Shown here one piece after another: positions 9,182-44,909 of a stretch of 49,857 nucleotides of DNA. The position numbers and the translations under genes were made by a program. Source of the stretch: a virus; the IMG/VR virus record IMGVR_UViG_3300042691_016421, positions 1 through 49,857 of that record, one strand, 5' to 3'. The first letter of the stretch is position 1. Each line of letters starts with the position of its first letter. The notes below the pieces were generated by a model. It made no database searches. It saw only the letters and a program-made list of their open reading frames with translations, and was not told the origin of the DNA.

Positions 9182-12100
9182 TTATATATTTTTTATGAAG
9201 CCGCCGCCACCGCCACCACTACCCACTGTAGAAGGTGATGATACTACCGAAGAACCTATTTGTATTGGGCTAGACACATATACAGCATAACTATTTGTTC
9301 CGGATTGATGTAAATCGTTTCTTCCCCAGAAGTATAATGCATTGTTAGTATCAGTAATCAAACTGAATTCATTACCTGCACGAACTTGTGTCCAGCTACC
9401 GGAAGCTACTACTACTGGACTACTATTTATTATTCCAGTTAAACCAGTATTCACTTGCACCGGGCTTGATTTATTTACAGTGGTATTATCACCCATCCCT
9501 CCGTATGTATTAAATCCCCAAAGCCATATTTGTGAGAATTTATCTATATAACCACCAACGTTGCCGCTTTGTGCTATACTAACAACATTACCTGATGCTG
9601 TTATTTGTACTGGACTACTGCGATATATCGTAGTATTATCACCTAATTCTCCTTGAAGATTATAGCCCCATGCCCATAAGTTATTATTGATATCTATAGC
9701 AAATGCATTCTCTACATTAGTACCTTTAGATACTACTTGTTTAAATAAACTTGAACTTGCTACTTGTACTGGACTACTTCTACGAACAGTATTGTTATCA
9801 CCTACACCCCCGTTTTGACCAAGACCTGTAGCAAATATTTGTCCAGTAGCTCTTAAAAGATATATGTTATTGATGCTAGCTGCCACTTGTATATGCTTTT
9901 CAGTACCAATTTGATATGGACTACTTCTATCAATAGTAGTGTTGTCTCCCAACTGACCGTAAATATTTCTACCCCAAGACCAGGCTATGTTATCAGTATC
10001 AAGTGCAACGGTGAAGCCACTATCGCTAACTGCAACTTGCAACCAACGTTTACTTGCAAATACTTGTACTGGGCTACTGCGTGATATAATAGTGGCATCA
10101 CCCAATTGACCAGCACTATTATCACCCCATGCCCACAATGTATTATCTGGTTTAATTGCAAAAACAAAAGTTTGTACATAAGTCGCGGCACAGACTGATG
10201 CCCAAGAACCTGGTATTTGTACAGGGCTACTTCTAGCAATTCTATCTCCCTGTACTAATTGTCCTGCGGCGTTTTGGCCCCAGGCCCATAATGTATAATT
10301 TGTTTTAATAGCATAAGTAGCGCCTGCTGTGGCGTAACTAGCGCAGTCAACTATAATCCAGCTTCCGCCACCGGATACCTGTACAGGACTACTACGTGTT
10401 ATTGTAGTGTTATCTCCCAATACTCCATAATTGTTATAGCCGGTAGCCCATAATGTTCCGTCGTTTCTAATTGCATGTCTGACATAGCCACCACCACCAC
10501 TGCCGCCACTATATTGCCATCCTGCATTATTACCAGCACCAATACCAATTGGCATAGGATTTACTCCGGCTGAACTTCCCCATCCAAATAGTCTACTATC
10601 TCTAGTTATGCCTAATGTATGACTATAACCAGCACTAACTTGTGACCAACTACTATTGCCTATTTGATTTATCCCTGCTATATAAGTTTGACTTAAGCCG
10701 CCAACAGTTATAGGTGTACTTGTTGTTGTCACCGTTGAGTTATCAGCTAATTGACCAAGACCGTCAGTTCCCCAGACATATAATAGACCATCAGTTTTCA
10801 GAGCCGTTACATAGGACGCTCCCACGCCCACCGTAATAAAACTTAAACCTATTGTAGTTCTAAGTTTGTTAGGATATATGAATGGATTTTGGCCTACAGT
10901 ATTAATTTGTACTGGGCCAGCAATTAATCCAGTAGTATTATTTCCTATATTACCTACTGGATTATTTCCCCATGCAAATAATAATCCATCACTTCTTATA
11001 GCACTTACATAAATTGCATCATAATATGCAGTAGGCGTTCTACCTACAATTGGATAGGTATTATAGTTTGCAATTTTTGCGACTGATACTGCAATCCAGC
11101 TACTTGTTCCTATTTGCACAGGACTACTGCGATATATTGTAGTATTATTACCTAATTGACCATTGGGGCCATTATTTCCCCAAGCCCATAATGTAAAATC
11201 TGCTTTAATAGCAAATGTTGTGCCACCACCAGTTGATACTGCAATCCAGCTACTTGTTCCTATTTGTACAGGACTAGAATAAAAAGCAAACGTATTTGCT
11301 GTATACACTGAATCAAGTTGAACTGGGCTACTTTTTGACACAACCGTGTTATCTCCGAGTTGACCCGTAAGACCATTGCCCCATACAAACAATCTGTTAG
11401 TAGTACCATCATTCAATAGACCGATAGCAACACCATTATTACCAGTACCAGACCCGATAGATACCCAACTACTTGTACCTATTTGCACAGGACTACTACG
11501 TGTGATTGTAGTGCCATCACCTAGCTGACCAACATTACCAAGTCCCCAAGACCATATTGTACCAGTTGTTGTTCTAGCTATGTATGAGCCGGCGCTACTA
11601 AAAATTGATACAATTTGTGTAAAGGAATACCCGGACATAATTTGCACTGGACTACTACGATACAATAGATGATTTGAATCATCTCCAAATTCTCCATAAT
11701 TATTCCATCCACCTATGTTGTATAATTGTCCTAATGTATTAATTGCGGCTTTAGTATATACTGCTATTGCTACACTACTCCAATTATTATTAGAACCAAT
11801 TTGCACAGGGCTACTACGTGATACGGTAGTACCATCGCCTAATTGACCATACGTGTTATCACCCCATGCCCACAATGTACCATCAGTTTTTATTGCGAGT
11901 ACACCTTGCGTCCCGGCGCCTTGTCCACCTTGGGCGGCAGCAGTAGTCCAGCTACCTAAAATTTGTACTGGTCTACTACGTGATATAGTATCATTTTGAC
12001 CCAATTGTCCGTATAAATTTTGACCCCACGCCCACAATGTGTTGTCATCCATTATAGCTATCTGCATTGCTCCAGAATCTGCACCAACACTAAATATCTG

Positions 12101-21100: not shown

Positions 21101-24100
21101 AGTCCAAGAACTATTAGAAACTTGTACTGGTGTGAAATTTTTTCTATATATTAATGGGTACCCAGATTGTCCATAATCAGTGGTTGCCCACGCCCAATTA
21201 AATAATGTTCCGTCATTTTTTATTAAAGTTATCCAATTTGGTGAGCTGAATGCATATCCTGTCACATCTATAAAACTACCAGACAAAGCAGTAAGTTGCA
21301 CTGGGCTACTACGTGATATAGTAGTGCCATCTCCTAATTGATTAAGTGAGCTTCCACTAGCACCCCATGACCATACAGTACCATTAGTTTGTAAACCTAT
21401 AGTTACAGTTCCTATAGGAACTACTTTACTCCATGTATACTGGGCTCCTATTTGTACTGGACTGCTACGTGATATAGTATCATTTAGTCCTAATTCTCCA
21501 TTATTGTTTGACCCCCATCCATATAAAGTATTATCACTGCGTATAGCAAACACATTGACATTGCCAACATTAACCTGTGTCCAGCTATATGTCTGAACAG
21601 TCTGTGCAGTAGCTTGTTTTACGTTAGCACCCCATGCATATAATTCACCAGCTGAATTAATTGCTGTTGCAAAACTCATACCTGCACTTATAGCAGACCA
21701 CGATTGATTTACTGTTTGAGTTATTTGTACAGGACTACTACGAGGGAATCCATCACCATATCCTAATTGTCCTGAACTATTTTGTCCCCATGCAAATAAA
21801 CTTCCGAATGGATCTATAGCTAATGCAAAATTTTCTCCGGCTGCAACTGATGTCCAATAACTAGTACCTATTTGTACTGGACTACTACGTTGTATTGTAG
21901 TACTATCACCTAATTGTCCGTACCAATTATCTCCACCAACACCCCATAATGTACCGTCTAGACGTATTTGATATTGAGTAAGACCTCCGCCTGTTGCTAA
22001 TTGTATCCAGCTATGTGTACCGTTAATGCCCGATTCGGCTGTAGCAAGAGTTCTAAATCCGGCTATTATCCAAAGTGATCCGTCAGTTTGTATTCCGAAA
22101 TTAGCTCCAAAGGTAGAGGAATCATTGCTTGCAATAGCAATACTTTGCCAATTAGATGCACCAATTTGTACAGGACTACTCCTACTTACAAAAGTTCCGT
22201 CTCCTAAGTAACCAGCTGATGATCCCCATGCAAATAATTTATTGTCTGACCGTATTGCAAAAACTGACCCTGCAATTGAGTTTGGACCTGTTGCTCCAAA
22301 CACACTTTTCCAACTATTATTACCTACTTGGGTTAGTGTGTTCCTATTTACTGTATCATTTAAACCTAATTGACCATAAGTATTGGGCCCTGCACTAAAT
22401 AAAATACCATCATATCTTATTGCATAGATGTTAGCGGGGCCGCAACCTATTTGAATCCAACTATCATTTGAAATTTGTACTGGGCTACTACGATTGATAG
22501 TACTTCCGTCACCTAAATTTCCACCTCCATTCCATCCCCATGCAAAAAGAAAACCTGTATTAGCTTCTAAAGCAATTACATGTAATGAGCCGGTATCTAC
22601 TTTACTAAATGTTCTGCTAGATGCAATTTGAACTGGACTACTACGGTTAGCTATACTATTATCACCTACAGAACCATAAAAATTATATCCCCATGCATAC
22701 AATCTACCTGCTGAATCTAAAGCAACAGTAAAGTTTTGGCTATTTCTTACAAAACTCCAATTATTATTAGTACCAATCTGTATAGGACTACTACGAGTTA
22801 TAGTGGTTCCGTCACCTAACTGACCTTCAAAATTTCTACCCCAGCCCCACAATGTACCGTTTGTTTTGATAGCCATTAAATGAGATTCACCCGCCGATAT
22901 AACAGACCATGATGCTATATCTGTTATATTATTTCTTGCAAGTTGACCAAATTGATTATTACCACTAGAAAATAATAATCCATTAATATCTATTCCTAAT
23001 GAAAAATTATTTCCCGCGGATACAACATTCCAACTACTTGTCCCAACTTGTAATGGGCTATTTGTTGATGTTACCGTGTTTAAGAACAATTGACCCTGAT
23101 TATTATTCCCCCAAGCCCATAATGTTTTATCACTGCGAATTGCTAACGTATGATTAGTACCTGCACTTATTGCTGTCCAACTACTTGTTCCAAGTTGTGT
23201 TGGACTATTAAACAATAATGTTCCACCTACTTGTACCGGGCTAGACCTAGTTGAACCTGCAGTAACTAGACCCGAAATAATATAATTATCGCCCTGACCA
23301 CTGTCACCTCCCCAGGCCCATAAATTGTAAGAGGTATCAAGTGCCATCATACCGCGTTGGGTGTTAACTAACTGAAGCCAATTTGAAGTTCCGAGTACTT
23401 GAGTAGGATTTGATTTATTAATAGTAGTACCATCACCTAGTTGACCAAAAGTCGAATTAAGTCCCCATCCTATTACTTTTCCTGAACTATCAATAGCAGA
23501 ATGATGACTTTGTGTAGATTTTACTGCTACGCTAGAAACACCATTAGCTATTTGTACAGGATCACTTCTTGAAATTACTGTTCCATCACCTACTGTGCCT
23601 ATAATATTAGTGCCCCAACCATATAATGTACGATTGGTATTTAAAGCATAAGAATTATTTAAGCCAGCACCAACACCACTCCAATTAGATAAAAATCCTA
23701 ACTGTACAGGGGTGCTACGACTTATAATGTTACCGTGACCTAATTCACCATTAAGATTGTAACCATGTGACCACAATGTTCTATCATTTCTTATTGCTAA
23801 TGTGAATTCAAGACCTAATGCAACATCATTAAATTTGACACTTACTGAAACTTGTACAGGGCTACTTCTAGCAATAAGAGTGTTGTCTCCAATTTGACCA
23901 GCACTGTTTGACCCCCACATAAAAAGATTACTGTTTACGTCAATTGCCGCTGTAGTTCCCTGTCCCAAACTAGTGTTTCCGGGATTGGCTCTTACTAATG
24001 TCCAACTACTTGATCCTACTTGAACTGGACTTGACTTACTAACAGTAGTATTGTCCCCTAGTTGTCCTTGTGCATTATAACCCCAACTGAATAATCTACC

Positions 24101-30600: not shown

Positions 30601-33600
30601 AAATGTATTATTGCCCCATGCCCATAATGTATTGTCTGCTTTTCTTGCTAAAAATGTTCTTCCACCTGCGGCGCTGTTTGCTCCTTTGCCTCCTACTACC
30701 TCTACAAAAGTAGTTCCGGCAAGTACTTGTACCGGGCTACTACGAGTGACTGTGGTTGCACCATTGTCGCCATATATACCACCAAACCATTGACCCCATA
30801 CATATATAGTATTATCTGTTTTTATACCTAACGTAGTTTCGGCAGTTACTGCAACAATAGACCAACTGCCACCACCGGATACCTGTACAGGACTGCTTCT
30901 ATAAGTTACAGTATTATCACCCAACTGTGCGTTACTGTTTGCGCCCCATCCCCATAATGTTCCGTCTGACTTGATTCCGAATGTGAAATAATCAACAGGG
31001 AATACACCTTCACCGCTAGCTACTATCATAGTCCAACTACCTGCAACTTGTACTGGGCTACTTCTACGAATAGTAGTGTTATCTCCTAGTGACCCGCTAG
31101 GATTATTATCTCCCCACATAAATAATTGTCCGGCACCGACAGTATCTGATAAAATATATCCATTAGTATTGCCGCCGCCTACTAACAACATTGATATAGT
31201 TTTTGGAGTATTATATCCCACTTGTCCAGTATCATTCTTACCCCAAGCATACAGTTTACTAGTGTTATCTATTGCAAGTACATGTGACGCTCCTGCACTT
31301 ACACTAGTCCAAGATTTAGCACCAAGTTGAATAGGTACACTACGTGTTACTGTATCTCCTTGACCCAATTGATATACAGAATTAAGACCCCAGGTAAATA
31401 ATCTACTAGAAGTATCAATGGCACTACTATAACTTAATGAAGCTGATATTTTAATGAACTCGTTAGAATACCCATTGGATAAAAATATAGGACTTGACCG
31501 TGCTACAGTATCACCTAAACCCAATGCACCAAATGTATTATTACCCCATACATACAGTTTATTCTGTCCATCACGTATCATCATAGAGCCACGATTGATA
31601 TATGCTTCTTTTAAATTTCCAGTAAAAGGCAATGCAACAACACTACTTCCTATTTGCACAGGGCTACTAGTATTAGCACCCGAAGATGTTATTAAGCTGT
31701 TACTTGTGTTTGTGCCCCAGCCCCAAATTGTATTATCGCTTCTTCTTGCTAGTGCTGTTCCACCACCACTAGCGTTTAATGTACCCTGTAAATCAACCCA
31801 TCTATTATCTGCAATTGTTCCTAATTGTACCGGACTACTTTTATTAACTATGTCACCTAATCCTAAAACACCGGTGGCGCCTTGACCCCATGTGAATATG
31901 TATCCGTTACCTATTGCACCTGCTGAATATTCACCTAAATTAGTAACACCAGTAAATGTTATATTACTGAAAGGTGTAGCTACTTGTACAGGACTACTAC
32001 GAGATAATGTAGTGCCATCACCTATTGTACCGTATGTTTGGTTTCCGCCCCAACCATATATTACGTTGTTAGTATCACTAGCAATGAAGGCAGCATTAGA
32101 TGAAAATCCAAATCCATTAACTGGACCTATAATATAATTCCAGTTAGTTGATGTTCCCACCTGTACAGGACTTGATTTAGTAACAGTAGTACCATCACCC
32201 AACAATCCACCATCTCCATATCCCCATGTCCATAATGTTCCGTCAGTTTTTATTGCCGCGCTTGAACTTATTCCTGCCGCTATAACAGAAAAATCACTTA
32301 ATGATAATACTTGAGTTGGGCTACTGCGTGAGACAGTACTAGTTAATCCTAATTGCCCTACGTTATTCATTCCCCAACCCCAAATTTTATTACCAGTAAG
32401 CGCAAGTATATGACGCCATCCTGTAACTACCTGGCTAAATGAAGATAATCCTACACCAACACCTCCATTTAATTGCACTGGACTTGATTTACTAACAGTA
32501 GTACCATCACCTATTTTTCCATCACCACCATTACCCCATACAAATAATAATCCACCTACTTTTATACCTACTGTAAAGGCATTGCCTGCACCTAATGCAT
32601 TATAACCATATACACTAGTCCAACTACCTGCAATTTGCACTGGACTACTACGTGATACAGTAGTACCATCACCTAACTGACCCTGGTTATTATCACCCCA
32701 TAAGAATAATCTACTATCTGTTGTTATTGCCCCATACACACCTTTAGTAAGACTAGCCCAATTAGTATTAGTACCTAGTTGTACAGGACTACTGCGACTA
32801 ATTGTAGTTCCATCACCTAAATACCCCGCACTATTAAATCCCCAGGCCCATAATGTGCCATCATTTCTGATAGCCATGACTGCACCTGATACTACTGATA
32901 CAGCGGACCATAAAGTACCACTATTAATTTGTATAGGACTGCTACGTGATACCGTAGAGCCATCACCAAAAGTTCCTTCAGCATTTCTTCCCCAACCCCA
33001 CAGTGAGCCACCGCTTAAAAAGAATGTAGTTGTGTCTGTTGTTAAACTTGCAGTGTTTACGTTATAACTTAATTTAACGCCTATTTGTACTGGGCTACTT
33101 CTACGAATAGTAGCACTATTGTCACCAACTTGCCCAAAATCATTAAATCCCCAACCCCACAATGAGTTATCACTTTTGATACCATATCTATTATATGCAG
33201 TATAGGCAATAGTTGGTATATAGTTCCAAGTACCAGCTAATTGCGTTGGCGCACTACGACTTGCTGTTGAAGTATCTCCAACTTGTCCATATATATTATT
33301 TCCCCATGCAAAGTATACACCGGTATTAGTAAGTGCTGTGCCTGCACTAATTTGAGTAATACTTAAGGCAGCAAAAGTTGCAATTTGTACTGGACTACTT
33401 TTTGCTACAGTCGTACTATCTCCAATCGCTCCGCTAGAGTTGCTTCCCCAAGCCCAAAGATTACCATTACCTGTAGTCAGTGCATATGTGGTGTCCTCCA
33501 TTGTTTTTGCTACTAATGCCCATGAAGTTAATGCACCGACTTGGACAGGACTACTTCTATTAATTGTATCTCCTAACCCGAGTTGTCCTGCATTATTATA

Positions 33601-33975
33601 TCCCCATGTCCATAATGTACCATCACTTTTAACTGCGGCGCCGTGAAAGCCACCACCACCTATTGACACCCAGTAAGGTGCAAAAATTTGTATTGGGCTT
33701 AATCTAGTTGTATTAGTACCATCACCTACTTGGAAGGCTGCATTACCGCCCCATCCCCATAATGTATAATCAGACCTGATTCCCAAAGTATGATTCGCTC
33801 CGGCACTTACATTAAGCCAACTTGATGTACCTAGTTGTATTGGACTTGATTTACTAGCAGTGGTATTATCACCTAATTGTCCTGATGTGTTATCCCCCCA
33901 GGCCCACAAGGTGCCGTCACTTCTGACTGCCATACTATGAGAAGATCCGTTACTAATAGTTGTCCAACTTAACAT
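24658..33975 (-). CDS. Giant RCC1-repeat protein 2 (3105 aa), probable virion fibre or adhesin
   Basis: This 9.3-kb frame consists of RCC1-type repeats from the first residues (MLSWTTISNGSSHSMAVRSD) to the last (VYTFGNNSNGQLGDGT). Both termini fall inside the repeat unit. The first three units measure 49, 49 and 50 aa when aligned at SW, and about 60 units are expected from length. No additional domain, signal or membrane segment is seen. The start codon shares one base with the TAA of giant gene 1 (TAATG), with only an AGGA eleven bases upstream as a ribosome binding site. The stop overlaps the next start as ATGA. It either makes a separate protein by termination-reinitiation or is the middle part of one ancestral array. 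A virion-surface role is inferred from context. Confidence 0.9.
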   Translation of the reverse strand: MLSWTTISNGSSHSMAVRSDGTLWAWGDNTSGQLGDNTTASKSSPIQLGTSSWLNVSAGANHTLGIRSDYTLWGWGGNAAFQVGDGTNTTRLSPIQIFAPYWVSIGGGGFHGAAVKSDGTLWTWGYNNAGQLGLGDTINRSSPVQVGALTSWALVAKTMEDTTYALTTGNGNLWAWGSNSSGAIGDSTTVAKSSPVQIATFAALSITQISAGTALTNTGVYFAWGNNIYGQVGDTSTASRSAPTQLAGTWNYIPTIAYTAYNRYGIKSDNSLWGWGFNDFGQVGDNSATIRRSSPVQIGVKLSYNVNTASLTTDTTTFFLSGGSLWGWGRNAEGTFGDGSTVSRSSPIQINSGTLWSAVSVVSGAVMAIRNDGTLWAWGFNSAGYLGDGTTISRSSPVQLGTNTNWASLTKGVYGAITTDSRLFLWGDNNQGQLGDGTTVSRSSPVQIAGSWTSVYGYNALGAGNAFTVGIKVGGLLFVWGNGGDGKIGDGTTVSKSSPVQLNGGVGVGLSSFSQVVTGWRHILALTGNKIWGWGMNNVGQLGLTSTVSRSSPTQVLSLSDFSVIAAGISSSAAIKTDGTLWTWGYGDGGLLGDGTTVTKSSPVQVGTSTNWNYIIGPVNGFGFSSNAAFIASDTNNVIYGWGGNQTYGTIGDGTTLSRSSPVQVATPFSNITFTGVTNLGEYSAGAIGNGYIFTWGQGATGVLGLGDIVNKSSPVQLGTIADNRWVDLQGTLNASGGGTALARRSDNTIWGWGTNTSNSLITSSGANTSSPVQIGSSVVALPFTGNLKEAYINRGSMMIRDGQNKLYVWGNNTFGALGLGDTVARSSPIFLSNGYSNEFIKISASLSYSSAIDTSSRLFTWGLNSVYQLGQGDTVTRSVPIQLGAKSWTSVSAGASHVLAIDNTSKLYAWGKNDTGQVGYNTPKTISMLLVGGGNTNGYILSDTVGAGQLFMWGDNNPSGSLGDNTTIRRSSPVQVAGSWTMIVASGEGVFPVDYFTFGIKSDGTLWGWGANSNAQLGDNTVTYRSSPVQVSGGGSWSIVAVTAETTLGIKTDNTIYVWGQWFGGIYGDNGATTVTRSSPVQVLAGTTFVEVVGGKGANSAAGGRTFLARKADNTLWAWGNNTFGQIGDGTTAARSSPVQISGNWTSITAGNGISGGIKSDNTLWIWGYNNFGQIGDSTTINKSSPVQAGVGKTWYKLGLGLSLTIALDSSYFLWSWGRNDGGQLGQNTTISRSSPVQVGASTWSAVACNNFVSSAIDTAGRFFAWGSNANGSVGDNTNVNRSSPVQVGSLSYSTINNPLQIGSSSWSVVSAGVDFSTGITTTSKLFTWGSNTVGQLGYVSTIRKLVAGGYYNGFAIREDYATFAWGNNANGQLGLGTVANSVVTAVQAGSLFFKDVSGGGLSSLLINQNDKLYSMGDNRYGQLGDNTGGSAIARSNPIQIGNSSWLSVSSGYGGFTSLAIKSDNTLWAWGNNIYGQFGTDIYATQLLSSPVQIGTSSWTAISVGSNFTLALKADGTLWSWGANDFGQLGRSLSTTYSWTTISAGANSADNTGFMIAIRSDGKLFSWGNNNIGQLGFGDALPSTNISYPLQIGNSSWTSVATGWSHVAAIDASGRLFTWGKNNSGQLGQNNTVARSSPVQVAGSYTYVSAGFEVTYAIKTDGTLWAWGANTLYAVGDGTTINRSSPVQVASSITNWSQVAPGTSHTLALRTTGQLYGWGNNGLLQLTGGTALRQHWLTYGAGSGVTNDGYLWTWGRNNFGQMGNNSTADNNIPGILGTATDNLWVKSESAGYNTTTSTTHAMKSNGTLWSWGSNTNGEIGDLTTVARSSPVQVAGTTGLTFNFFTTSQVGEVTAAITNDGRLYMWGLNTSGVLGLNDTVNRSSPVQVPGSWVTISIKRDMALGIKTGGTLWSWGLNSGANGAGGLGLNDTVNRSSPVQIGASTWSAVATTQGGMAAIDSVGRLFAWGVNTNGSCGQNDTVARSSPVQIGANSWTQVYGYADQSSGTNNGGFFGVQYAVNKASLALHGWGWSTSLGLVGDNTTVSRSSPVQIATNFVYTQSGSPGTGIGTPISYTFSSQGAQTITGVDNNGIAWTWGNGSIGAMGTNTTINRSSPVQVSAAGNYYLGSTTLYPFTISNNVVYRLWAPRPIQLEVGSSFTQVTAGQYSSAAIKSDSTLWVWGYNEYQALGITYSFTQIAGSDSHTMALRGDNTLYMYGLGTAGALGDNTIVTKSSPIVLTAGGVRRWTLVAGANTNAPNSASFGIKDDATLWAWGSNTDGQLGQSDTISRSSPTQIAGSWSVLMTGRSNFHMLAIKTDGTLWAWGINSNGQLGDSSTASRSSPVQLAGTWTNIWGGAAMSMALKNDGTYWTWGSNSLGQLASNTTVNRSSPVQVTSGFANVSQMRPYANGFAYLNTLGQLFAWGANNNGELGVLNDTVHRSSPVQVRTDASWITLATTDRSTTAVRTDYLVFAWGRNNSGQVGDSSTVSRSSPVQLLSLNTANSASFIQLFSGFERNYILVSNEPTGKMWAWGLNTTGQLGDLTLTNKSITGAVWSGVLSLSMFQPIPVQIAGSWTQVGFGNDNFSVNNQFAVKTDGTLWSWGSNNVGQTGNNFALASRTQFQPRQVGSSTNNTIVSVRSSYAAFRNSSGSIFTVGSNSVGQLGDNTVINKSSPVQLSTGYIEYTPSQIPGSWTQINASNFTGFVTPTTHALGLKTDNTLWSWGSNSTGQLGDNTTISRSSPVQIAGSWSVISAGSSHSGAISTSGVLWMWGRNNEGQLGDFTTVSRSSPVQIISSWVGNLPLIIWSKLSLGYDSTFATTTISGATAQNQELVWSWGFNSAGWVSLGDNQNVNRSSPVQLGSINSVQISLLQNRSSPTQVGNSNWSTVSAGYSFAYGILSNNSLFAWGSNGGSSSILSDGSTTDRISPVQLSTYNFTLLASGGSHITAVMSNDPVLGYKMVASGLNTTGQLGQNNTNTYGVQYKLAGMSFVAAANASSPVQIGSVDYGNYYRSSPVQIGTDSWSSVSSGENHSLAKNSSGLLFAWGYNVNGQVGDSSTINRSSPVQISSSSYTLISAGYNHNIIEKSDGSVYTFGNNSNGQLGDGT

Positions 33976-33977
33976 TA
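33973..33977 (-). promoter_or_regulatory. TAATG stop/start overlap joining giant genes 1 and 2
   Basis: Gene 1 ends GGA AAT AAT ACA TAA and the last A starts ATG TTA AGT TGG of gene 2, again in the -1 frame. Only a weak AGGA lies eleven bases upstream. Translation of gene 2 therefore probably depends on ribosomes finishing gene 1. Confidence 0.75.
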
Positions 33978-36900
33978 TGTATTATTTCCTATCTGTCCAA
34001 ACGTATTATCACCCCATGTAAATAAATTACCATACGCATCAATTGCATTGCTACTATTATTAGTAGCGGCAATATACTTATATATCTTAGTACCTACTTG
34101 CATCGGACTACTTCTAGGTAATAAGCTACTATTATTTAACCCGCCGTTAAGATTGGCTCCCCATGTCCATATTGTACCATTTTGTGCCAATGCTACACTA
34201 TAACTTTTGCCTGCTTGGACATCTGTCCAATTGCCTGATACTTGTACTGGACTTGATTTAGTAACAGTAGTACCATCACCTAATTGTCCATTACTATTTG
34301 TACCCCATGTCCATAGTGTATTATCGATTCTAATTGCTGTAGTGAAATTATCAGATACACTACCTATTATCCAACTATTTGTTCCAATCTGCAATGGGCT
34401 ACTTCTATTAGACGTTGTTATATCTCCTAATTGTCCGAATCCATTATAGCCCCACATATATAATCTACCCAAAGCATCTATTGCCATGCTAGTTGACATA
34501 CTAGCATTAACAAATGCCCAGCTACTTAATAGTCCTATACGAACTGGTCTATCATAAAAATTTCCTTTTCCTGTACCCATTTGTACAGGGCTACTGCGTG
34601 AAAGAACATCATTAAATTGTCCCAATTTTCCAGAGTCGCCTTGACCAGTCACCATAGTAGTATCATTCAATACACCAAATATATTAACACTGCCTGCATA
34701 TAAATTAGTAAAGCTAAATGATCCTACTTGCACCGGGCTACTTCTAGATAGAGTATCATTTTGTCCTAACTGTCCCCAAGTATTATCTCCCCATGCCCAT
34801 ATTGTTCCATCAGTTCTTAATGCACTAGAGAAACTATAACCTGCACTTATTTGAGTATAACTGCTAGAATTTAATTGTATAGGGGATGGTACTATAGTTT
34901 TTAGTGCTGTATCTATTTGTACAGGACTACTTCTTGAAATTACAGTACCATCACCTAGTTGTCCTGAACTATTCGACCCGAATGTAAATAATACTCCCGC
35001 AGAATTTATATATCCTGCTTGATTTTCTATACCACTAATTAAATCTGTGTTAGGAAGCTGTTTATATGTTCCAGAAAGTACAATGGGACTTGATTTATTA
35101 ACTGTGGTATCATCACCTAGTTGACCTAATTGATTACGACCCCATCCATACACTACACCACCACTAGTTCCGAGTACCGTAGTTGCAAATGCAGTTACGT
35201 CAGTCCAACTACCAGGTACTTGCACTGGGCTACTTCTAGCTGTTGTATTATTTTGTCCTAATTGTCCGTATAAATTTTGACCCCATGACCATAAAGTATT
35301 ATTAGATTGTAATGCTACTACACCATATAAAGTAGATACAACTTTAGTCCAAATATTCAATGTACCAACTTGTACTGGGCTACTTCTATTAATTGTAGTT
35401 CCACTACCTAAATTTCCATTGACATTGAGACCCCAGGTCCACAGTGTGCCATCTGTTTTTACTATAGCTACATATGATAAACCTTGACAAACTGAACTTA
35501 TGCCACCACCAAATATTTGCACAGGACTACTACGACTAATTGTACTATTATTCCCTAGTTGACCTACGGAGTTACTACCCCAAGCATACAATCCACCATT
35601 ACTTGTTAAACCTATTGTGTTTCCATTTGTAGTATAAATTTTAGTCCAATTGAGAGCAGTTCCTATTTGTATCGGACTACTGCGATATATTGTAGTATTA
35701 TCACCTAGTTGTCCAATATTATTGTATCCCCATCCATAAAGAACACCAGAAAAATCTACTGCAAACATACTTGCAGAACCAAAATCACCACCTAAGGTTC
35801 CTAAAAAGCTAAATGACATTGTACTAACTTGCACTGGACTACTTTTTGACACTGTAGTACCATCGCCATATGACGGCGTTGTAACGCCTACAGTTGAACC
35901 CCATGCATATAAGTATCCACCATTTTTTAATCCAAAAGTAGTAGAACCCATTGATACTTGTAGCCAACTATTAGAAGAAGTTATAGTTGCAAGTTGACCG
36001 AATGTATTACTACCCCAAAGATATAAGCTATTATTAATCAAACCCATAACGTGTGAACTGCCTGCGGCAATTTGAGTCCAACTACTTGTTCCTATTTGTA
36101 TAGGGCTACTACGATAACCCATATTAGATTCTAAGTTATTTGCTAATACTCCAAATGTTCCATTGCCCCAACTCCATAATGTACCATTACTCTTAGTAGC
36201 GATAGTAAAATCACTTTTTATACTTACTAAATTCCAACTACCACTAGTTTGTATTGGGATTGAACGAGTGACTGTAGTATTATCACCAACTTGGCCACTA
36301 GAGTTAAGTCCCCATACAAATAATCTCTTGTCTGTTGTTATTGCGGCACTAAAAGATGCGCCGGCGGTTATTAAACTCCAGCTACTATTACCAACTTGTA
36401 ACGGGCTGTTTCTAGCTGAGGCTGAACTTCCAGTACTTGTTTGTGTTGGGCTACCTTTATCAACTGTAGTATTATCACCCAATTGACCTGTAGTGTTAAG
36501 TCCCCATGTATTAAAATTACTAAGAACATCTAGTCCATAAGAACTATATGCACCTGTAGAAACATAAGTCCAACTGCTAGTACTTACTAAAGAAATTTCT
36601 CTAACTGCTGTATTTACTATCTGTACAGGATTACTTCTTGCTATAGTAGTACCATCACCCAACTCACCATTTTTGTTTCCACCAAATGCAATTGCATATC
36701 CTTGGCTAGAATAAGCTATAGTATGAAACTGAGTGTCAGTACTTGCAGGAATGCCAGCACCACCTGCATATACTTGAGTAAATGATATACCTGTAGATAT
36801 TTGTACAGGACTACTTGTATTGTTTATTGTATTATTACCCAACTGTCCTGCAGAATTCAAACCCCAGGTAAATAATCTACCTAGGCTGGTAATCCCGACT

Positions 36901-39900
36901 GAATGAAAGGTTCCAACAGAAATATTAGTCCAATTACTGTTACCTACCTGTACAGGACTACTTCTATTAATTGTATCTTCTAATCCAAGTTGTCCTACAT
37001 CATTTCTTCCCCATGCATATAATCCATTATTAAGTTGAATTGCTAAAGTGTGACCACCACTATTGCCGCCGGTTGATACTGCAATCCAGCTACTTGTTCC
37101 TATTTGCACAGGGCTACTACGATTAATTGTGGTGTTGTCACCTATTTGACCAAGGGAGTTGGAGCCTGAAGCAAATAATCTATAATTAGCATCAATTACC
37201 ACTGATGTTGAGTCCCCGGCTGATATAACAATCCAAGAACTAGAACTTATTTGTACTGGACTGCTACGACTTACTGTTGTAGTGTCACCCAACTGTCCAC
37301 TGGTATTTAATCCCCAAGCCCATAATGTACCGGTAATATTAGTTGCCAATACATGCGTAGTTTTTACACTTACTTTTGTCCAGCTACCTGCAATTTGTAC
37401 CGGGCTACTGCGTGATACTGTAGTACCATCACCTAATTGTCCACTGGTATTTAATCCCCAACCCCATAATGTATTATCTGGTTTGATTGCAAATATCGTA
37501 TCTTTATTGACTGAAGAAGAAATCGCTATCCAACTGCTTGTGCCTATTTGTACTGGACTACTGCGTGATACAGTTGTAGTATTATCAAGAAATACACCAT
37601 TTGATGCTTTACCCCATTGCCACAATGAATAATCAAGTCTAGTTGCTAACCCAGTACTAATGAGACTAAACGAATTACCAGAACCTACTTGACTAAATGA
37701 GTTAGCACCCCAACCATATAATAAACCAGTTGTAGTTATAGCTAATGCATGTGATTCACTTGCAGTAACACTAGACCAACTAGTTGATGTACCTATTTGT
37801 ATCGGACTTGATTTACTAACAGTAGTATTATCACCTAATTGATATGAAGTGTCATCACCCCATGCATACAATTTTCCATCAGTTGTAATTCCATATGAAG
37901 CATTATAATTACTTGCAATAACAGACCAATTGCTAGTTCCTAATTGTACTGGACTGCTACGACTTACTGTTGTACTGTCACCCAACTGTCCTACATTATT
38001 ATATCCCCATGTAAGTAATTTAGTTGTAGAATTTATTGCTGTGGTAAATCCATCTCCTGTGGTAGACCCGGCTATATTATAAGGATTTAATGTTGTTACT
38101 GCCGGTGTACCTGTTGTAAAATATGCGGGATTACCAACTTCATTTAACTGCCATCTTGCACTTGAATTACTATAATAAGTAGTATAGGTGTCCATGTAAT
38201 AATAAGGCAATGCTATACCTGAATAATTATACTGACCTATACCCAATCCTGCATATTGAACAGTACCTGATATACTTGCGGGTGCGCCAGCACCGGTTGA
38301 ACCTACTTGATTATAATTATATGGTATTCTAGCTGGTGTAAAACTAGCATTATACATTGCTTGACCGGATATAATACGAAGTCCGTGGATATAACCGTTC
38401 CAATATGAATTTGAGGCTCCGCCTCCATTGGCACCAATAACTAATATTGTTTGTACTGTAATAGCAGTAAGTGTCGTAGTACCAGTTAAGGTTTGGCTTA
38501 TACCATTAATGTATATTGATATTGCTCCGGCATTTACACTAATTGCAATATGAGTCCATGTACTAGCTGATATAGCATTTACTGTTACCGTGCTTGTAGT
38601 TCCGCCGGCACCGCCTATATTTAATAATCCATACTCAACTTGTCTACTACTATTTATACTAACAGCAAAATTATTAGTAGATGCTGTGCCACTATTTCCT
38701 GCAATTACGGATCTTACCGCACCGCCGGTATAATAAACCCAAGCCTCAAACGTGTAGGTATTAGCCAATGCTGTTGGTATACCAGTACCTGTATACCAAC
38801 TAGATGATCCGTTAAAACTTACACTATATGCTTGAATAGTAGTATCAGGTTTGCCACCTGCAGAAACAAGATTCCAATTAGTTTCTGATCCTATCTGTGT
38901 AGGGGTACTACGATTAATCGTTGTTCCATCACCTAGTTGACCATTACTATTATTTCCCCAGGCATATAATCTACTAAAAGGACTACTTATTGCTACACTA
39001 TGACTTGATCCTGCAAATATTTGTGTATATTTTACTAGTGTTTCGTTTGTTCCTGCCAAATATGTTGTGAAGGGTGAAGGTGCTCCTGTATATCTCGGTG
39101 AACCGGCGCTGGTAATAGTTCTACTATTAGCACTATCTACGGCTGGATTTGTTTGCAATGTTAATAATACAACTTGACCAGCAGTTATTGCCGCAGTATT
39201 TGCACCGCCGTATGGATTAGCAGACTGTGTTAATTGTAATGGACCAGTTGGTGTTGTAAAATTCACTGAGGCAGCATACACAATACTATTAGTAAATCTA
39301 AGATTGTTTATCAATCCTCTAAAATTTACTCTAGGATGTCCAAAATATGATCCAATCCATGTTTTATTAAATGCTACTGTACCACTAGTAACGTAATTAG
39401 CCCAGGTAGCACTTGCTAACCAGACACCATTAATATATGCATGTGTGAGTGTAGTATTTCTCACTATCGCAAGATGGTACCATGTATTAACACTTAAACT
39501 TGCGCTGAAATTAGTAGTTGCAAAACTGTGTTGAAGTGCTAGTGTTGAGCGGCCAGTTGATGAATTATTATAATACGTTTGTATAGAATTATTATTGACC
39601 ACTAGTACCCAACTCAAAACACCATTAGTCCAATCACCAAAAGAAAATATTGGTTGCGGGAAATCAAAGTCTGTTGCGTAAAAGAAACATTCAAGTGTTT
39701 TACTTGTTGTGTTAAAATCAAAGGTAGAACCTGTTGCACCACTTTCAGCAAGACTAAAATTATTCTGTGTTATTGAATTAGTTAATGGATATTGATTGAA
39801 TACTGCTGATATAGTTGCTGATGATGGTGATACACCTGCACTAATTTGTGTTGGACTACTACGTGTGATATATGTACCATCACCTAGTTGTCCACTACTA

Positions 39901-42900
39901 TTATCACCCCATGCATATAGTGTACCATCAACTCTTAATGCCAGTGAATGAGTTGAGCCTGCTGAAACACTAGTAAAACTAAATGCACTTCCTTGACCAG
40001 TGGCAGCAATTTGTACAGGGCTACTACGATTAATTGTGGTGTTGTCACCTATTTGGCCAAGCTGATTATTTCCCCAACCCCATACAGTATAATCACTACG
40101 TAATGCTACTGTATGAGATAATCCAGATGCTATTCTTGTCCAACTTAACCCCGATAATTGTCCATTGTTACTTGCACCCCAGCTAAATAATTTTCCATCA
40201 GAACTTATGGCTAGAGAATGAAAGTTACCTGCTGCCACTTGACTCCAACTTCTTCCTATTCCAACTAATACCGGGCTACTCTTATTAACAGTAGTTGTAT
40301 CTCCTAATTGACCTACAGAATTAATTCCCCATGCATATAATGTGCCGTCATTTTTAATAGCTAATACATGTGATTCGCCTACAGAAATTTTATTCCAGTA
40401 ATTATTTAAAAATGCAGGGAATGCTATATACATAGGATCTAGCTGAGTACCCCATCCGTATAAGTATTTGTCTTTTGATACACCTAAAGTATGATAAGTG
40501 CCTGCACTAACTGATATCCAACTACTTGTACCAATTTGTACAGGACTAGATACGTTAGAATATGCAGGAACTAATACTGGACTACTTCTATTAACAGTGT
40601 CTCCTAAACCCAATTGTCCTTCTACATTATAACCCCATACATATAATCCATTATCCCTGAACGCTCCGTTATTAGGAAAACCCACTGCTTGGGGAGGTAG
40701 ATTAACAATTTTAGTTAAATCCCAATTTGATCCAATTTGTACTGGACTACTTCGCCGTGAAGATCCAGCACTATCTATATATCCGCCTTCACCGACGAGA
40801 TTTCCCCCCCAACTGTATAAATAGCCATAAGTGTCAACTGCAAGAAATCCGGCAGTACCACCTCCTTCGAATGCACGTACACTAATCCAACTACCGGCTA
40901 TTTGTACCGGACTACTTCTATTAATTGTATCATTTTGACCTAATTCTCCTTGAGCATTTCTACCCCAAACCCATAATGTATTATCTATTCTTATGGCTCC
41001 GGTTGCGTTGGTCGAGGCACTTATGTATGTCCAGCTACTTGTTCCTATTTGTATTGGGCTACTACGTGATATTGTAGTACCATCACCTAGTTGACCATTA
41101 CTATTGTTTCCAAACGAGAATAGCGCACCGTCAACTCTTAATGCATGAGTAACGCCATTAATTAGCGAAACCATTGTCCAACTACTAGTACTTATTTGTA
41201 CAGGGCTACTACGAGAAACTACATCCCCTGTTCCAAGTTGGCCGAAGCCATTACTACCCCATATCCACATCTTATAATTAACATCTATGGCTGCCCCAGT
41301 GCCTGAGCCAGCATATAATTTAGTAAATAAACCTGAATTTATAATAGGTGTGGGTATGGTCCTGCTACTCACAGTATTGTCACCCAACTGTCCACTGGAA
41401 TTTAATCCCCAACCGTAACATCTACCATCTTCTGTAATACCTAATGTAAAGCGACTTCCTGTAGATATTGATTTCCATTTAAGTAGCCCATAATCACCAG
41501 AACTTGCGCCAGACACACCAACTTGTACAGGATTACTCCTATATACAGCGCCCACTCCTATTTGACCATCGAGATTGTATCCCCATCCCCACAATGTACC
41601 ATCATTTCTAATAGCCATAGTGTGGTCTGATATTGCTACACAAGACCATCCTACATACGGAGTTGGTCCTGTACTTGGTCCTATTCCCAATTGACCATTC
41701 ATGTTAAAACCCCAGGCCCACAAGCTGCCGTCACTACGTATTGCTACTGTATGGCTTGCGCCTCCTGTTATTGAAGTCCAGCTATTACTACCTATTTGTA
41801 CTGGACTACTACGATTTAATGTTGTACTATCACCCAATTGTCCACTATCATTTGCGCCCCATGCAAATAATGCACCGTCACTTCTAATTGCTATTACATG
41901 ATTTCCACCATCACGTAATGCTATCCAATTAAGATCCGTTGCTACACTATTAATACCTAATTGTCCGTAATTATTAACACCCCATGAAAATAATGCACCA
42001 TCACTTCTAACAGCTATTGTATGTGAGCCACCTGAACTTACAGCAGACCAACTACTGTTTCCAATCTGTACTGGACTACTACGTTGTATCGTAGTACTAT
42101 CGCCTAATTGCCCATATGGATTCAATCCCCATGCAAATAGTTTATTTTCTGTAGTAATAGCTAATGTGTCAAATTTGCCAGCACAAATATATGTGTAACT
42201 ACTTGACCCTACTTTACCTAATACTGCTTGGAAATTAGGATTAAATGTACCTACTTGTGCAGGACTACTACGATTGTCTGCCCCGACGCCACCTCCTATG
42301 CTGTATAATTGCCCAACAGAGTTAAGATAATATGTTCCCCATGCGGATATAGTAACACCTTTACTTGCAGGTGTACCAAAATTGCCCACCTGAACAGGAC
42401 TTGAATAATGTGCTGTTGTATTACCTAAACCCAATTGTCCACCTGCATTATAACCCCAAGTAAATAAGTTATTATTAGCATCTACTGCAATTGTAAAAAA
42501 TCCAGTTCCTGAAGTATTAAAATTTGAAGCTACTTGTGACCAACTACTATAACCAATTTGAGTTGGGTTAGACCTATATAAGCCAGTAAAATTAAAGCCA
42601 AAATCGCCAAAGTCATCTCTACCCCATGCAAATAATAAACCAAGAGAAGTTATACCGTATACAGCATAACTACCTGACACCATAGACCAACTTAACTGTC
42701 CTACCTGTACAGGCTGGCTACGATTAATTGTTGTTCCATCACCTAATGAGCCGTATGTTTGATTGTATCCCCATCCCCACAGTGATGAGTTTGCTGATTT
42801 TATTGCAAAGCCGCCACCGTAGCGTCCAAAAACTTTTTGATATCCTGTACCAATTTGTACGGGACTGCTTTTATTTATTATTGTGCCATCACCTAGTGCA

Positions 42901-43835
42901 CCTGCAGTAGCTATACCGGTAGCAAATAATCTACCATTAATATCTATCATATATGTTGCGGGAAGTGAGGATGCGGCATCACCTACCGAGGCTGCAACTT
43001 GAATATAACTACTTGTACCAATTTGCACCGGACTACTACGTGCAACAGTAGTACCATCACCCAACTGTCCAGAGGTATTTGCACCCCAACTCCATAAACT
43101 TCCGTCACTTCTAATAGCATGACTGGTTGATTGGCCGGCGGCTATTTGTGAATAGCTATTTCCGGTACCTAATTGTACTGGGCTACTTCTATTAATAGTA
43201 TCAGCTAGGCCCAATTGACCGTGTACGTTAGAACCCCAAGTCCATAAGCTACCATCGCTTTTTAATGCTACAACATGGCTGTCACCACTAACCATTTGAA
43301 CATATGATATTCTAGCACCTAATTGACCTGCAGTATCTGCACCCCAAGTCCATAAACTACCATCACTCTTTAATGCAACATTATGATATCCACCAGCATT
43401 TACACTAGTCCAACTTTTGTTGCCTGAAATTTGTACTGGATAACTTCTATTAATTAGAGATGCATCTGCTAGTTGACCATAGTTGTTTAGTCCCCATCCC
43501 CATAGTGTGTAATCTTTATCTATAGCTACTGTATGATAATTACCTGCACTAACTGCAATCCAACTAATTGTGCTAGCAATTTGCACAGGACTGCTTCTAT
43601 CTAGTGTAGTATTATCGCCCAATTGACCTAAACTGTTAGACCCCCAAGCAAATAATATACCATCACTACGTACTGCTACAGTATGTGTGCCACCTGCGGC
43701 AATTTGACTCCAACTGTAATATTGAGGAGATGTTGCACCTATTTGACCATAGGTGTTGTCACCCCACATGAATAAATTAGTTGCCGAGCCTGAAGCTGCC
43801 TGTACTGCAAGTAAACGCCACGCTAAGGAGCTCAT
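33975..43835 (-). CDS. Giant RCC1-repeat protein 1 (3286 aa) with two LamG-like domains
   Basis: This is the first of the three giants and the only one with a distinct short N-terminus (MSSLAWRLLAVQAASGSATN) before the first unit at LFMWGDNTYGQIG. RCC1 units of about 50 aa fill residues 20-1340 and 1920-3286. In between, two LamG/concanavalin-type domains (about 1345-1593 and 1668-1842) are separated by a single RCC1 unit; such domains commonly bind carbohydrate. The start has the best ribosome binding site of the window (GAGGAGG, four bases before the ATG), and its ATG overlaps the TAA of the chaperone-like gene. The protein ends mid-repeat at FTWGDNTFGQIGNNT. The strong initiation site and the lectin domains suggest it leads expression of the array and contributes receptor binding. 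Confidence 0.91.
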   Translation of the reverse strand: MSSLAWRLLAVQAASGSATNLFMWGDNTYGQIGATSPQYYSWSQIAAGGTHTVAVRSDGILFAWGSNSLGQLGDNTTLDRSSPVQIASTISWIAVSAGNYHTVAIDKDYTLWGWGLNNYGQLADASLINRSYPVQISGNKSWTSVNAGGYHNVALKSDGSLWTWGADTAGQLGARISYVQMVSGDSHVVALKSDGSLWTWGSNVHGQLGLADTINRSSPVQLGTGNSYSQIAAGQSTSHAIRSDGSLWSWGANTSGQLGDGTTVARSSPVQIGTSSYIQVAASVGDAASSLPATYMIDINGRLFATGIATAGALGDGTIINKSSPVQIGTGYQKVFGRYGGGFAIKSANSSLWGWGYNQTYGSLGDGTTINRSQPVQVGQLSWSMVSGSYAVYGITSLGLLFAWGRDDFGDFGFNFTGLYRSNPTQIGYSSWSQVASNFNTSGTGFFTIAVDANNNLFTWGYNAGGQLGLGNTTAHYSSPVQVGNFGTPASKGVTISAWGTYYLNSVGQLYSIGGGVGADNRSSPAQVGTFNPNFQAVLGKVGSSSYTYICAGKFDTLAITTENKLFAWGLNPYGQLGDSTTIQRSSPVQIGNSSWSAVSSGGSHTIAVRSDGALFSWGVNNYGQLGINSVATDLNWIALRDGGNHVIAIRSDGALFAWGANDSGQLGDSTTLNRSSPVQIGSNSWTSITGGASHTVAIRSDGSLWAWGFNMNGQLGIGPSTGPTPYVGWSCVAISDHTMAIRNDGTLWGWGYNLDGQIGVGAVYRSNPVQVGVSGASSGDYGLLKWKSISTGSRFTLGITEDGRCYGWGLNSSGQLGDNTVSSRTIPTPIINSGLFTKLYAGSGTGAAIDVNYKMWIWGSNGFGQLGTGDVVSRSSPVQISTSSWTMVSLINGVTHALRVDGALFSFGNNSNGQLGDGTTISRSSPIQIGTSSWTYISASTNATGAIRIDNTLWVWGRNAQGELGQNDTINRSSPVQIAGSWISVRAFEGGGTAGFLAVDTYGYLYSWGGNLVGEGGYIDSAGSSRRSSPVQIGSNWDLTKIVNLPPQAVGFPNNGAFRDNGLYVWGYNVEGQLGLGDTVNRSSPVLVPAYSNVSSPVQIGTSSWISVSAGTYHTLGVSKDKYLYGWGTQLDPMYIAFPAFLNNYWNKISVGESHVLAIKNDGTLYAWGINSVGQLGDTTTVNKSSPVLVGIGRSWSQVAAGNFHSLAISSDGKLFSWGASNNGQLSGLSWTRIASGLSHTVALRSDYTVWGWGNNQLGQIGDNTTINRSSPVQIAATGQGSAFSFTSVSAGSTHSLALRVDGTLYAWGDNSSGQLGDGTYITRSSPTQISAGVSPSSATISAVFNQYPLTNSITQNNFSLAESGATGSTFDFNTTSKTLECFFYATDFDFPQPIFSFGDWTNGVLSWVLVVNNNSIQTYYNNSSTGRSTLALQHSFATTNFSASLSVNTWYHLAIVRNTTLTHAYINGVWLASATWANYVTSGTVAFNKTWIGSYFGHPRVNFRGLINNLRFTNSIVYAASVNFTTPTGPLQLTQSANPYGGANTAAITAGQVVLLTLQTNPAVDSANSRTITSAGSPRYTGAPSPFTTYLAGTNETLVKYTQIFAGSSHSVAISSPFSRLYAWGNNSNGQLGDGTTINRSTPTQIGSETNWNLVSAGGKPDTTIQAYSVSFNGSSSWYTGTGIPTALANTYTFEAWVYYTGGAVRSVIAGNSGTASTNNFAVSINSSRQVEYGLLNIGGAGGTTSTVTVNAISASTWTHIAISVNAGAISIYINGISQTLTGTTTLTAITVQTILVIGANGGGASNSYWNGYIHGLRIISGQAMYNASFTPARIPYNYNQVGSTGAGAPASISGTVQYAGLGIGQYNYSGIALPYYYMDTYTTYYSNSSARWQLNEVGNPAYFTTGTPAVTTLNPYNIAGSTTGDGFTTAINSTTKLLTWGYNNVGQLGDSTTVSRSSPVQLGTSNWSVIASNYNASYGITTDGKLYAWGDDTSYQLGDNTTVSKSSPIQIGTSTSWSSVTASESHALAITTTGLLYGWGANSFSQVGSGNSFSLISTGLATRLDYSLWQWGKASNGVFLDNTTTVSRSSPVQIGTSSWIAISSSVNKDTIFAIKPDNTLWGWGLNTSGQLGDGTTVSRSSPVQIAGSWTKVSVKTTHVLATNITGTLWAWGLNTSGQLGDTTTVSRSSPVQISSSSWIVISAGDSTSVVIDANYRLFASGSNSLGQIGDNTTINRSSPVQIGTSSWIAVSTGGNSGGHTLAIQLNNGLYAWGRNDVGQLGLEDTINRSSPVQVGNSNWTNISVGTFHSVGITSLGRLFTWGLNSAGQLGNNTINNTSSPVQISTGISFTQVYAGGAGIPASTDTQFHTIAYSSQGYAIAFGGNKNGELGDGTTIARSNPVQIVNTAVREISLVSTSSWTYVSTGAYSSYGLDVLSNFNTWGLNTTGQLGDNTTVDKGSPTQTSTGSSASARNSPLQVGNSSWSLITAGASFSAAITTDKRLFVWGLNSSGQVGDNTTVTRSIPIQTSGSWNLVSIKSDFTIATKSNGTLWSWGNGTFGVLANNLESNMGYRSSPIQIGTSSWTQIAAGSSHVMGLINNSLYLWGSNTFGQLATITSSNSWLQVSMGSTTFGLKNGGYLYAWGSTVGVTTPSYGDGTTVSKSSPVQVSTMSFSFLGTLGGDFGSASMFAVDFSGVLYGWGYNNIGQLGDNTTIYRSSPIQIGTALNWTKIYTTNGNTIGLTSNGGLYAWGSNSVGQLGNNSTISRSSPVQIFGGGISSVCQGLSYVAIVKTDGTLWTWGLNVNGNLGSGTTINRSSPVQVGTLNIWTKVVSTLYGVVALQSNNTLWSWGQNLYGQLGQNNTTARSSPVQVPGSWTDVTAFATTVLGTSGGVVYGWGRNQLGQLGDDTTVNKSSPIVLSGTYKQLPNTDLISGIENQAGYINSAGVLFTFGSNSSGQLGDGTVISRSSPVQIDTALKTIVPSPIQLNSSSYTQISAGYSFSSALRTDGTIWAWGDNTWGQLGQNDTLSRSSPVQVGSFSFTNLYAGSVNIFGVLNDTTMVTGQGDSGKLGQFNDVLSRSSPVQMGTGKGNFYDRPVRIGLLSSWAFVNASMSTSMAIDALGRLYMWGYNGFGQLGDITTSNRSSPLQIGTNSWIIGSVSDNFTTAIRIDNTLWTWGTNSNGQLGDGTTVTKSSPVQVSGNWTDVQAGKSYSVALAQNGTIWTWGANLNGGLNNSSLLPRSSPMQVGTKIYKYIAATNNSSNAIDAYGNLFTWGDNTFGQIGNNT
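38310..38840 (-). other. LamG-like domain 2 within giant gene 1
   Basis: This second laminin-G-type domain carries VSFNGSSSWYTGTG, NTYTFEAWVYYTG, ASTWTHIAISVNAGAISIYI, NGISQTL, and SYWNGYIHGLRIISGQAMYN. It differs clearly from domain 1, so the two are not a recent duplication. About 70 residues of unassigned, Tyr-rich sequence (38090-38310) follow before RCC1 units resume at LLTWGYNNVGQLGDS. Confidence 0.82.
39050..39805 (-). other. LamG-like domain 1 within giant gene 1
   Basis: The RCC1 pattern stops and about 250 residues of a laminin-G/concanavalin-type sandwich follow. Key segments are TSKTLECFFYATDFDF, VNTWYHLAIVRNTTLTHAYI, NGVWLASA, and TWIGSYFG with LINNLRFTNSIVY. The W-Y-H-L-A-I-V-R strand followed by a Y-I-N-G hairpin is characteristic of LamG_3. 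Such domains in phage tail proteins often bind host polysaccharide; binding here is inferred. Confidence 0.8.
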
Positions 43836-44903: not shown

Positions 44904-44909
44904 CTCCTT
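44904..44909 (-). promoter_or_regulatory. Ribosome binding site AAGGAG of the 175-aa gene
   Basis: AAGGAG lies five bases before the ATG and overlaps the TAA of the upstream 1075-aa gene. It supports the chosen start. Confidence 0.75.

Follow-up and report, generated by a model that had tools for sequence, protein, structure and literature searches.

The stretch of DNA analyzed here (hereafter the window) is a linear virus record of 49,857 bases (IMG/VR record IMGVR_UViG_3300042691_016421), in which an array of RCC1-type beta-propeller repeats, encoded by three contiguous genes (A, B and C), fills positions 9182-43835 of the minus strand. The products of these genes probably represent a giant tail-fiber-associated, host-contacting complex of approx. 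30 seven-bladed RCC1 propellers that are inserted into one another; with slightly less confidence, we propose that A, B and C together form one recursive structure of at most six levels, with seven blades per level, in which outer propellers and the root propeller are completed across polypeptides. An earlier note on this DNA had envisaged a plain string of propellers, but loops that bracket groups of seven blades point to propellers inside propellers, and this is the new aspect, i.e., that the blades are not a plain string and that loop types can be read as opening and closing brackets that hold seven blades. To our knowledge, recursive nesting, if true, would go far beyond known single propeller insertions. 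It would also mean that a recursive protein architecture is readable from sequence and that giant repeat proteins could be solved with a rule open to testing, namely that matched loop types enclose seven blades. Phage RCC1 proteins, so far suspected to be DNA packers, would then be likelier to sit at the tail surface, and this phage would devote approx. 35 kb to probable host contact.

The RCC1 array and its three genes

Genes A, B and C encode 3,286, 3,105 and 5,159 amino acids, respectively (11,550 in total), over 34,654 bp or 69.5% of the window. The earlier description, i.e., some 11,550 RCC1 residues filling 70% of the window as three coupled genes, thus agrees with the exact coordinates, and the coupling consists of TAATG and ATGA overlaps. 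The main features of the array are:

33975..43835, minus strand: gene A, 3,286 aa, approx. 55 RCC1 blades and two LamG stretches (ORF, HMM)
24658..33975, minus strand: gene B, 3,105 aa, approx. 58 RCC1 blades; GQLGDGT-stop directly past strand C (ORF, HMM)
9182..24661, minus strand: gene C, 5,159 aa, approx. 97 RCC1 blades; two D strands at the N-terminus (ORF, HMM)
9185..9223, minus strand: glycine-rich C-terminal tail of gene C, GSGGGGGGFIKNI (sequence)
38367..38771, minus strand: best LamG (Laminin_G_3) stretch, gene A residues 1689-1823 (PF13385)
39030..39830, minus strand: long insert at gene A blades 27/28, taken as the other LamG site, limits approximate (blade positions)

A Pfam search bore out the assignment to RCC1-type repeats, as all 150 scored PF00415 (RCC1) matches, with 195 candidates, were above the curated cut-off. 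A custom HMM built in this analysis found 211 RCC1 units in A, B and C at iE<0.01, and counting of three-strand blade cores gave 55 + 58 + 97 = 210 blades, two of which were inferred inside long loops; the earlier figure of approx. 200 units and approx. 30 seven-bladed propellers fits both counts (210 = 30 × 7). Whole-domain matches to PF25390, the RCC1-like domain that represents a seven-bladed propeller, covered 16 stretches in A, 18 in B and, for C, 13 in one half and 16 in the other. Most likely, the approx. 210 repeats fold as approx. 30 nested seven-bladed propellers. In gene A, two stretches also passed as Laminin_G_3 (PF13385, LamG, concanavalin A-like). GYIKN-type endings similar to the tail of gene C occur in the related records G003, G022 and G023.

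Gene neighborhood and independent records

In the direction of transcription, the array is preceded by a tail fiber gene, the phrog_5838 virion protein gene, the phrog_9017 tail fiber gene and the PF16778 chaperone gene. The flanking genes are:

48182..49855, minus strand: tail fiber protein (phrog_6942 match), running off the record end (PHROG match)
44908..48135, minus strand: virion structural protein (phrog_5838), 44.8% identity to Synechococcus phage S-RSM4 (PHROG)
44371..44898, minus strand: tail fiber protein (phrog_9017) (PHROG match)
43835..44404, minus strand: tail assembly chaperone (PF16778) (profile match)
7346..9124, minus strand: 592-aa protein with start MHEID and a methyltransferase match, directly downstream of the array (profile match)

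In addition to the 592-aa protein, the downstream side encodes Methyltransf_24, a GT25 glycosyltransferase, both ribonucleotide reductase subunits and PAAR. The phrog_5838 protein matched 114 phage records, mostly Synechococcus phages or cyanophages, with 44.8% as the best identity, a comparison at the level of this one protein. Among 47 loci fetched with phrog_5838, five (L012, L013, L014, L033 and L055) contained RCC1 units, including two of this same phage. The array can be regarded as phage DNA, as it is surrounded by the phrog_5838 virion protein, tail fiber PHROGs, the tail assembly chaperone and PAAR.

The array is also not an assembly artefact, as it is present as a whole in a separate virus record of 75,325 bases (G001, IMGVR 3300008113_005947), in two blocks with 99.84% and 99.93% identity; the earlier note's placement of a genuine array in a phage genome therefore holds. 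The only length difference within the array is a 126-bp in-frame deletion (42 residues) in G001, where the bases at window positions 21498-21623 are missing and one blade is lost together with the D-less loop before it, i.e., an opening bracket as defined below. As this loss would break the bracket count, it may represent either a misassembly or a true variant. A further record (G002, IMGVR 3300008107_007069) spans a portion of A and B but lacks two short stretches of the window, at 41871-42027 (157 bases) and 33569-33702; the 157-base gap shifts the frame and is thus likely an assembly collapse.

Between the window and G001, the three genes differ by 38 single-base differences (23 synonymous, 15 non-synonymous). 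With approx. 7,940 synonymous and approx. 26,710 non-synonymous sites, the ratio is near 0.19 for the array (array sums by hand) and 0.08 for 12 flanking genes, two other flanking genes being left out. These substitution counts suggest that the reading frames of A, B and C are kept by selection. Eight of the 15 non-synonymous differences fall within an 11-base stretch of B and one of them, scored singly, would be a stop; the G001 frame of B is open across this cluster, which may be a local assembly difference.

Loop types bracket groups of seven blades

In a normal blade, strand D (RSSPVQIG) lies in the loop that comes after the core strands A-B-C. Other loops are odd, as they either are short and have no D strand or hold two D motifs and a linker. 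If an outer blade were interrupted by an inner propeller after strand C and before strand D, an entry loop without D, an exit loop with two D strands and seven blades per level would be expected. The loops of a related protein, L147, for example, read 6(4(4(7)3)3), followed by one full and one partial blade.

The bracket pattern was first spotted by eye; automatic rules were written later, which differ from one another and none of which refers to seven. Under the first rule, 22 of 49 leaf brackets enclosed exactly seven blades (shuffle mean 2.0, maximum 8 in 2,000 shuffles). The second rule, for which G023 was left out as near-identical to G022, gave 22/42 leaves at seven and 25/42 at multiples of seven (shuffle multiples: mean 2.6, maximum 10 in 5,000). 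A third rule, applied at three thresholds to 11 proteins, gave 17/27 to 18/28 (shuffle mean approx. 1.5, maximum 7 in 2,000). When all closed levels rather than leaves were counted, 31 of 47 were of size seven in 11 proteins, including the three of the window and with G023 taken in place of G022 (shuffle mean 2.98, maximum 10-11 in 5,000). Under this all-closings rule, 33 of the 47 levels were multiples of seven; 16 were not seven and 14 of these were not multiples of seven either, while each other size from 3 to 12 was seen twice at most.

For the window alone, sevens were found at 5/15 leaves with the first rule, 7/14 leaves with the second and 5/13 closings, the last value being reached by one in 5,000 shuffles. 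Automatic parsing of the first G023 protein put all five closings at seven and left one open level of seven, which the double-D start of the next gene would close. With the third leaf rule, gene C and gene E of G003 share the prefix 2(7)2(6(3(4(2(5(7), a common prefix that is absent under the first (22/49) and second (22/42) leaf rules. Overall, D-less and double-D loops behave as matched brackets around seven blades, which suggests propellers inserted inside propellers.

The same loops would be ordinary linkers if the array were a linear row of approx. 30 independent propellers forming a long flexible tail fiber or whisker. We consider this arrangement unlikely, as seven blades lie between an opening and a closing far more frequently than shuffled loop orders would give, and as the pattern 4(7)3 recurs in L147, L068, G003 and G023. 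It is nevertheless consistent with a 14-unit protein (L076) that has no bracket loops, and with the arrays of G021, G024 and G025 (5 proteins), for which the all-closings rule found no closings; given the latter result, nesting is not shown to be universal among such arrays. Hair-like tail appendages, which a linear fiber might resemble, are described for phage CBB, which lacks the RCC1 protein of phage GAP32 (PMC5259590).

A structure model of a relative places a propeller between the brackets

Insertion and linear arrangement make different predictions for the 4(7)3 segment of L147, a relative, which has 14 blades and was modeled with AlphaFold2 from a 52-row alignment (nine rows were window segments). 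The model (mean pLDDT 89.9, pTM 0.56) closes the middle seven of the 14 blades into a propeller, rather than blades 1-7 and 8-14 as a linear string would have it. Runs with pLDDT below 50 occur only at residues 182-187, 536-545 and 702-716, which correspond to the predicted entry loop, the predicted exit loop and the end. The stretch that aligned with UVR8 (4d9s), at Z 55.5 and with 1.4 A over 349 residues, was 188-543, i.e., the predicted inner bracket. This confident model thus indicates that, in the relative's segment, an inner seven-bladed propeller sits between the predicted brackets. The fold search barely tests the region outside residues 182-538, and both outer parts are covered together in only two of its 50 rows (Z approx. 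17); closure of the outer propellers and joint folding across proteins would follow from the bracket reading.

An earlier alignment with badly placed rows (L077:5717-7816 and L089:11087-13156) had been set aside, and it was the 52-row alignment that was folded. A two-sequence AlphaFold2 model (mean pLDDT 52.8) matched largely beta-solenoid or beta-helix folds; we regard it as uninformative and not as evidence for a solenoid.

Parse of the three genes as one string

Parsed by hand, A, B and C read as one balanced string of 210 blades, six brackets deep, with a root of seven blades. This parse has 25 closed levels, of which 22 contain seven blades, two 14 and one 21; the three levels with sums of 14, 14 and 21 need extra in-line propellers. 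Hand judgement while expecting seven entered at A38, A50, B41, B49, B56, C26, C27, C37, C39, C59, C61, C68 and C85 (this list of loops is not exhaustive), and the hand parse departs from the automatic parse in all three genes. The root propeller would draw six of its blades from C and the seventh from A, and one propeller begun in A/B would close in C:

43737..43832, minus strand: root-propeller blade, gene A blade 1 (hand parse)
24326..24571, minus strand: root-propeller blades, gene C blades 1-2 (hand parse)
22937..23179, minus strand: root-propeller blades, gene C blades 10-11 (hand parse)
10553..10648, minus strand: root-propeller blade, gene C blade 88 (hand parse)
9299..9394, minus strand: root-propeller blade, gene C blade 96 (hand parse)

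With this composition of the root propeller, A, B and C would have to assemble together. We propose that the chain exits an outer blade past strand C through a short D-less loop and builds a full seven-bladed inner propeller, and that the return loop would then supply the last D strand of the inner propeller, followed by the waiting D strand of the outer blade; repeated at up to six levels, such insertion would give a branching tree.

The joints between the genes are the following:

33973..33977, minus strand: A/B stop-start overlap, TAATG (sequence)
24658..24661, minus strand: B/C stop-start overlap, ATGA, with the same ATGA joint in G003, G022 and G023 (sequence)
24668-24673, minus strand: GGGGGA, a Shine-Dalgarno-like stretch within the GQLGDG codons just 5' of the ATG of gene C (sequence)
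24572..24661, minus strand: N-terminal part of C, which carries a pair of D-strand motifs (NRSSLTQV...SLSPIQIG), predicted closing bracket for the propeller begun in A/B (motifs, bracket reading)

Gene A, the first blade of which is the one assigned to the root propeller, stops directly past strand C (GQIGNNT-stop), and G003, which is not split at the A/B point, has a short D-less loop there (NNGSYYS). Likewise, the B/C joint is located right past strand C of B, and C opens with two D strands. That a Shine-Dalgarno-like sequence is embedded in the codons for the repeat motif GQLGDG, in the window and in relatives, may be a simple reason for splits at the B/C point. The overlapping stop-start joints would keep synthesis coupled and favor joint assembly of the three proteins. 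Sequence errors are an unlikely cause of the gene splits, given that G001 has exactly the same A/B joint and that the ATGA joint recurs in relatives. In G021 and G024, the corresponding joints are a 28-base gap and directly adjacent genes, respectively.

Related arrays and the seven-blade unit

Seven is also the prevailing unit in smaller RCC1 proteins. Exactly seven units were found in 94 of 119 distinct complete RCC1 ORFs of related viral loci (after removal of duplicates, of ORFs that reach a record end and of five loci from the same phage), with the other 25 spanning 3-70 units; this predominance of seven-unit proteins is compatible with a linear string as well. Among complete bacterial RCC1 ORFs, the seven-unit peak is weaker (18/76). 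RCC1 repeats were found in 34 phage records, 101 of 143 viral loci (RCC1 queries had been used to fetch 96 of these loci) and at least 79 bacterial loci; the earlier remark that they are best known from eukaryotic proteins undersells their phage and bacterial spread. Clusters of 6-7 adjacent or nearly adjacent ORFs, each with 7 RCC1 units, were observed at L090, L101 and L092.

The same gene order, which the earlier note had proposed to look for in other contigs, is present in G003, with two giant genes, D (4,821 aa) and E (5,123 aa). Another record shares the G003 sequence in the stretch compared. Gene C and G003 E show 34% identity overall. By hand parse, G003 D has the same skeleton as A and B and differs by whole propellers. 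We propose that relatives differ by gain or loss of whole propellers at bracket sites, so that the phage would build a dendrimer-like adhesin through insertion of domains and not by repeating them end to end.

Altogether, G003, G021, G022, G023, G024, G025, G027 and G028 carry RCC1 arrays of 35 to approx. 181 units (35-122 in the stretches read for the seven records other than G003), and in the portions that the records cover, all are smaller in total than the array of the window. A PF16778 chaperone gene adjoins the array in all six of these eight records that hold the upstream side, and a protein with a MHEID or similar start (likeness by eye) lies on the other side, on the opposite strand in G024. 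Positions 13179-39059 of the G027 contig (L182, L183) are taken up by one RCC1 ORF that is open at the record end and encodes at least 8,626 aa. Two of three pieces of this ORF were scanned and contained nine Laminin_G_3 stretches; LamG is also present in G003 E.

Comparison with known RCC1 proteins and likely role

The blade sequence (PF00415, PF25390) and predicted fold of the array are shared with cellular UVR8, HERC RLDs and RCC1, and UVR8 is both the best solved sequence match for the first 14 blades of C and the best model match for the L147 segment. These cellular proteins align as single seven-bladed domains, whereas the window encodes approx. 30, which the bracket reading places inside one another and which are distributed over three genes. 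In DDB1-type intertwined propellers, one propeller is inserted into another and three propellers are present in one chain; DDB1 thus resembles our reading of the window in its insertion, but its insertion does not recur over six levels and involves a single chain instead of three. None of the literature matches listed (titles and beginnings of abstracts, with few subscription papers and no preprints) dealt with nested RCC1 propellers or a phage RCC1 array this large.

As in the window, RCC1 or RCC1-like genes are present in the tailed phages W70, GAP32, phAPEC6 and 121Q. Three RCC1 proteins of W70 (W70_237-239, 40-43 kDa; PMC11370258) and the RCC1 protein gp1 of GAP32 (PMC5259590) were detected in virions by mass spectrometry. 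The W70 proteins are separate and approx. of seven-blade size, whereas those of the window are giant multi-propeller chains.

For the RCC1-like proteins of phAPEC6, a DNA-condensing role was proposed (PMC7247149), and the same idea is repeated in the paper on the virion RCC1 proteins of W70 (PMC11370258); these papers suggest DNA packing, whereas we favor the tail. Internal DNA-condensing proteins packed in the head appear very improbable to us in the case of the window. A, B and C together contain 515 K+R and 507 D+E (pI 7.6-8.4; S+T+N+G 44-46%) and, with this near-neutral net charge, lack a basic DNA-binding character. Eukaryotic RCC1 is a Ran exchange factor that binds chromatin. Moreover, the array lies among tail fiber genes, A carries LamG, and one relative joins RCC1 to a tail fiber family. 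In this relative, L090, a phrog_9017 tail fiber match, i.e., a match to the family of the window gene at 44371-44898, is followed by a seven-unit RCC1 propeller (one of six RCC1 proteins scanned).

We also weighed whether the proteins act outside the virion, as released or cell-surface proteins during infection, e.g., as a decoy or glycan-binding factor. Glycosyltransferase and methyltransferase genes adjoin the array, as such a role might predict, but the array directly follows the tail chaperone gene with overlapping joints, and the virions of W70 and GAP32 contain RCC1 proteins, which makes a non-virion role improbable, if less so than DNA condensing.

Overall, a host-contacting adhesin at the tail surface appears the likeliest role, as suggested by the position next to tail fiber genes, the tail fiber fusion in a relative, the LamG domains and the RCC1 proteins in W70 and GAP32 virions. 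The array is encoded among tail fiber and tail chaperone genes, and the fiber or adhesin role considered earlier gains support from this neighborhood, from the lectin-like LamG inserts and from the fusion. A, B and C would then be present in the virion and bind a ligand; the LamG domains and the many blade surfaces may bind host glycans or other surface molecules.

The lake and reservoir cyanophages BUCT-ZZ01, with a "BNR repeat" protein of 700 aa, and S-SRM01, with three RCC1 genes, both Kyanoviridae, offer a parallel in gene order. As in the window, their RCC1-matching genes come close after tail fiber genes (in BUCT-ZZ01, after a tail fiber gene and a small gene), while their products have approx. 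344-700 aa as compared to 11,550 aa. The main text of the S-SRM01 paper does not mention RCC1 or "chromosome condensation" (PMC8557907).

Other features of the records

Searches of the window for tRNAs and, at the gathering threshold, for Rfam families gave no match, and direct repeats at the DNA level merely echo the protein repeat. Near the ribonucleotide reductase genes, at window positions approx. 1279-1509, lies an ORF of 76 aa that has a glutaredoxin-like CPYC motif, as seen at 26482-26712 of G001. Positions 1-23776 of the G001 contig (L059, L060) extend approx. 24 kb past window position 1 and contain many ORFs. Several of these carry CxxxCxxC motifs that resemble those of radical SAM proteins.
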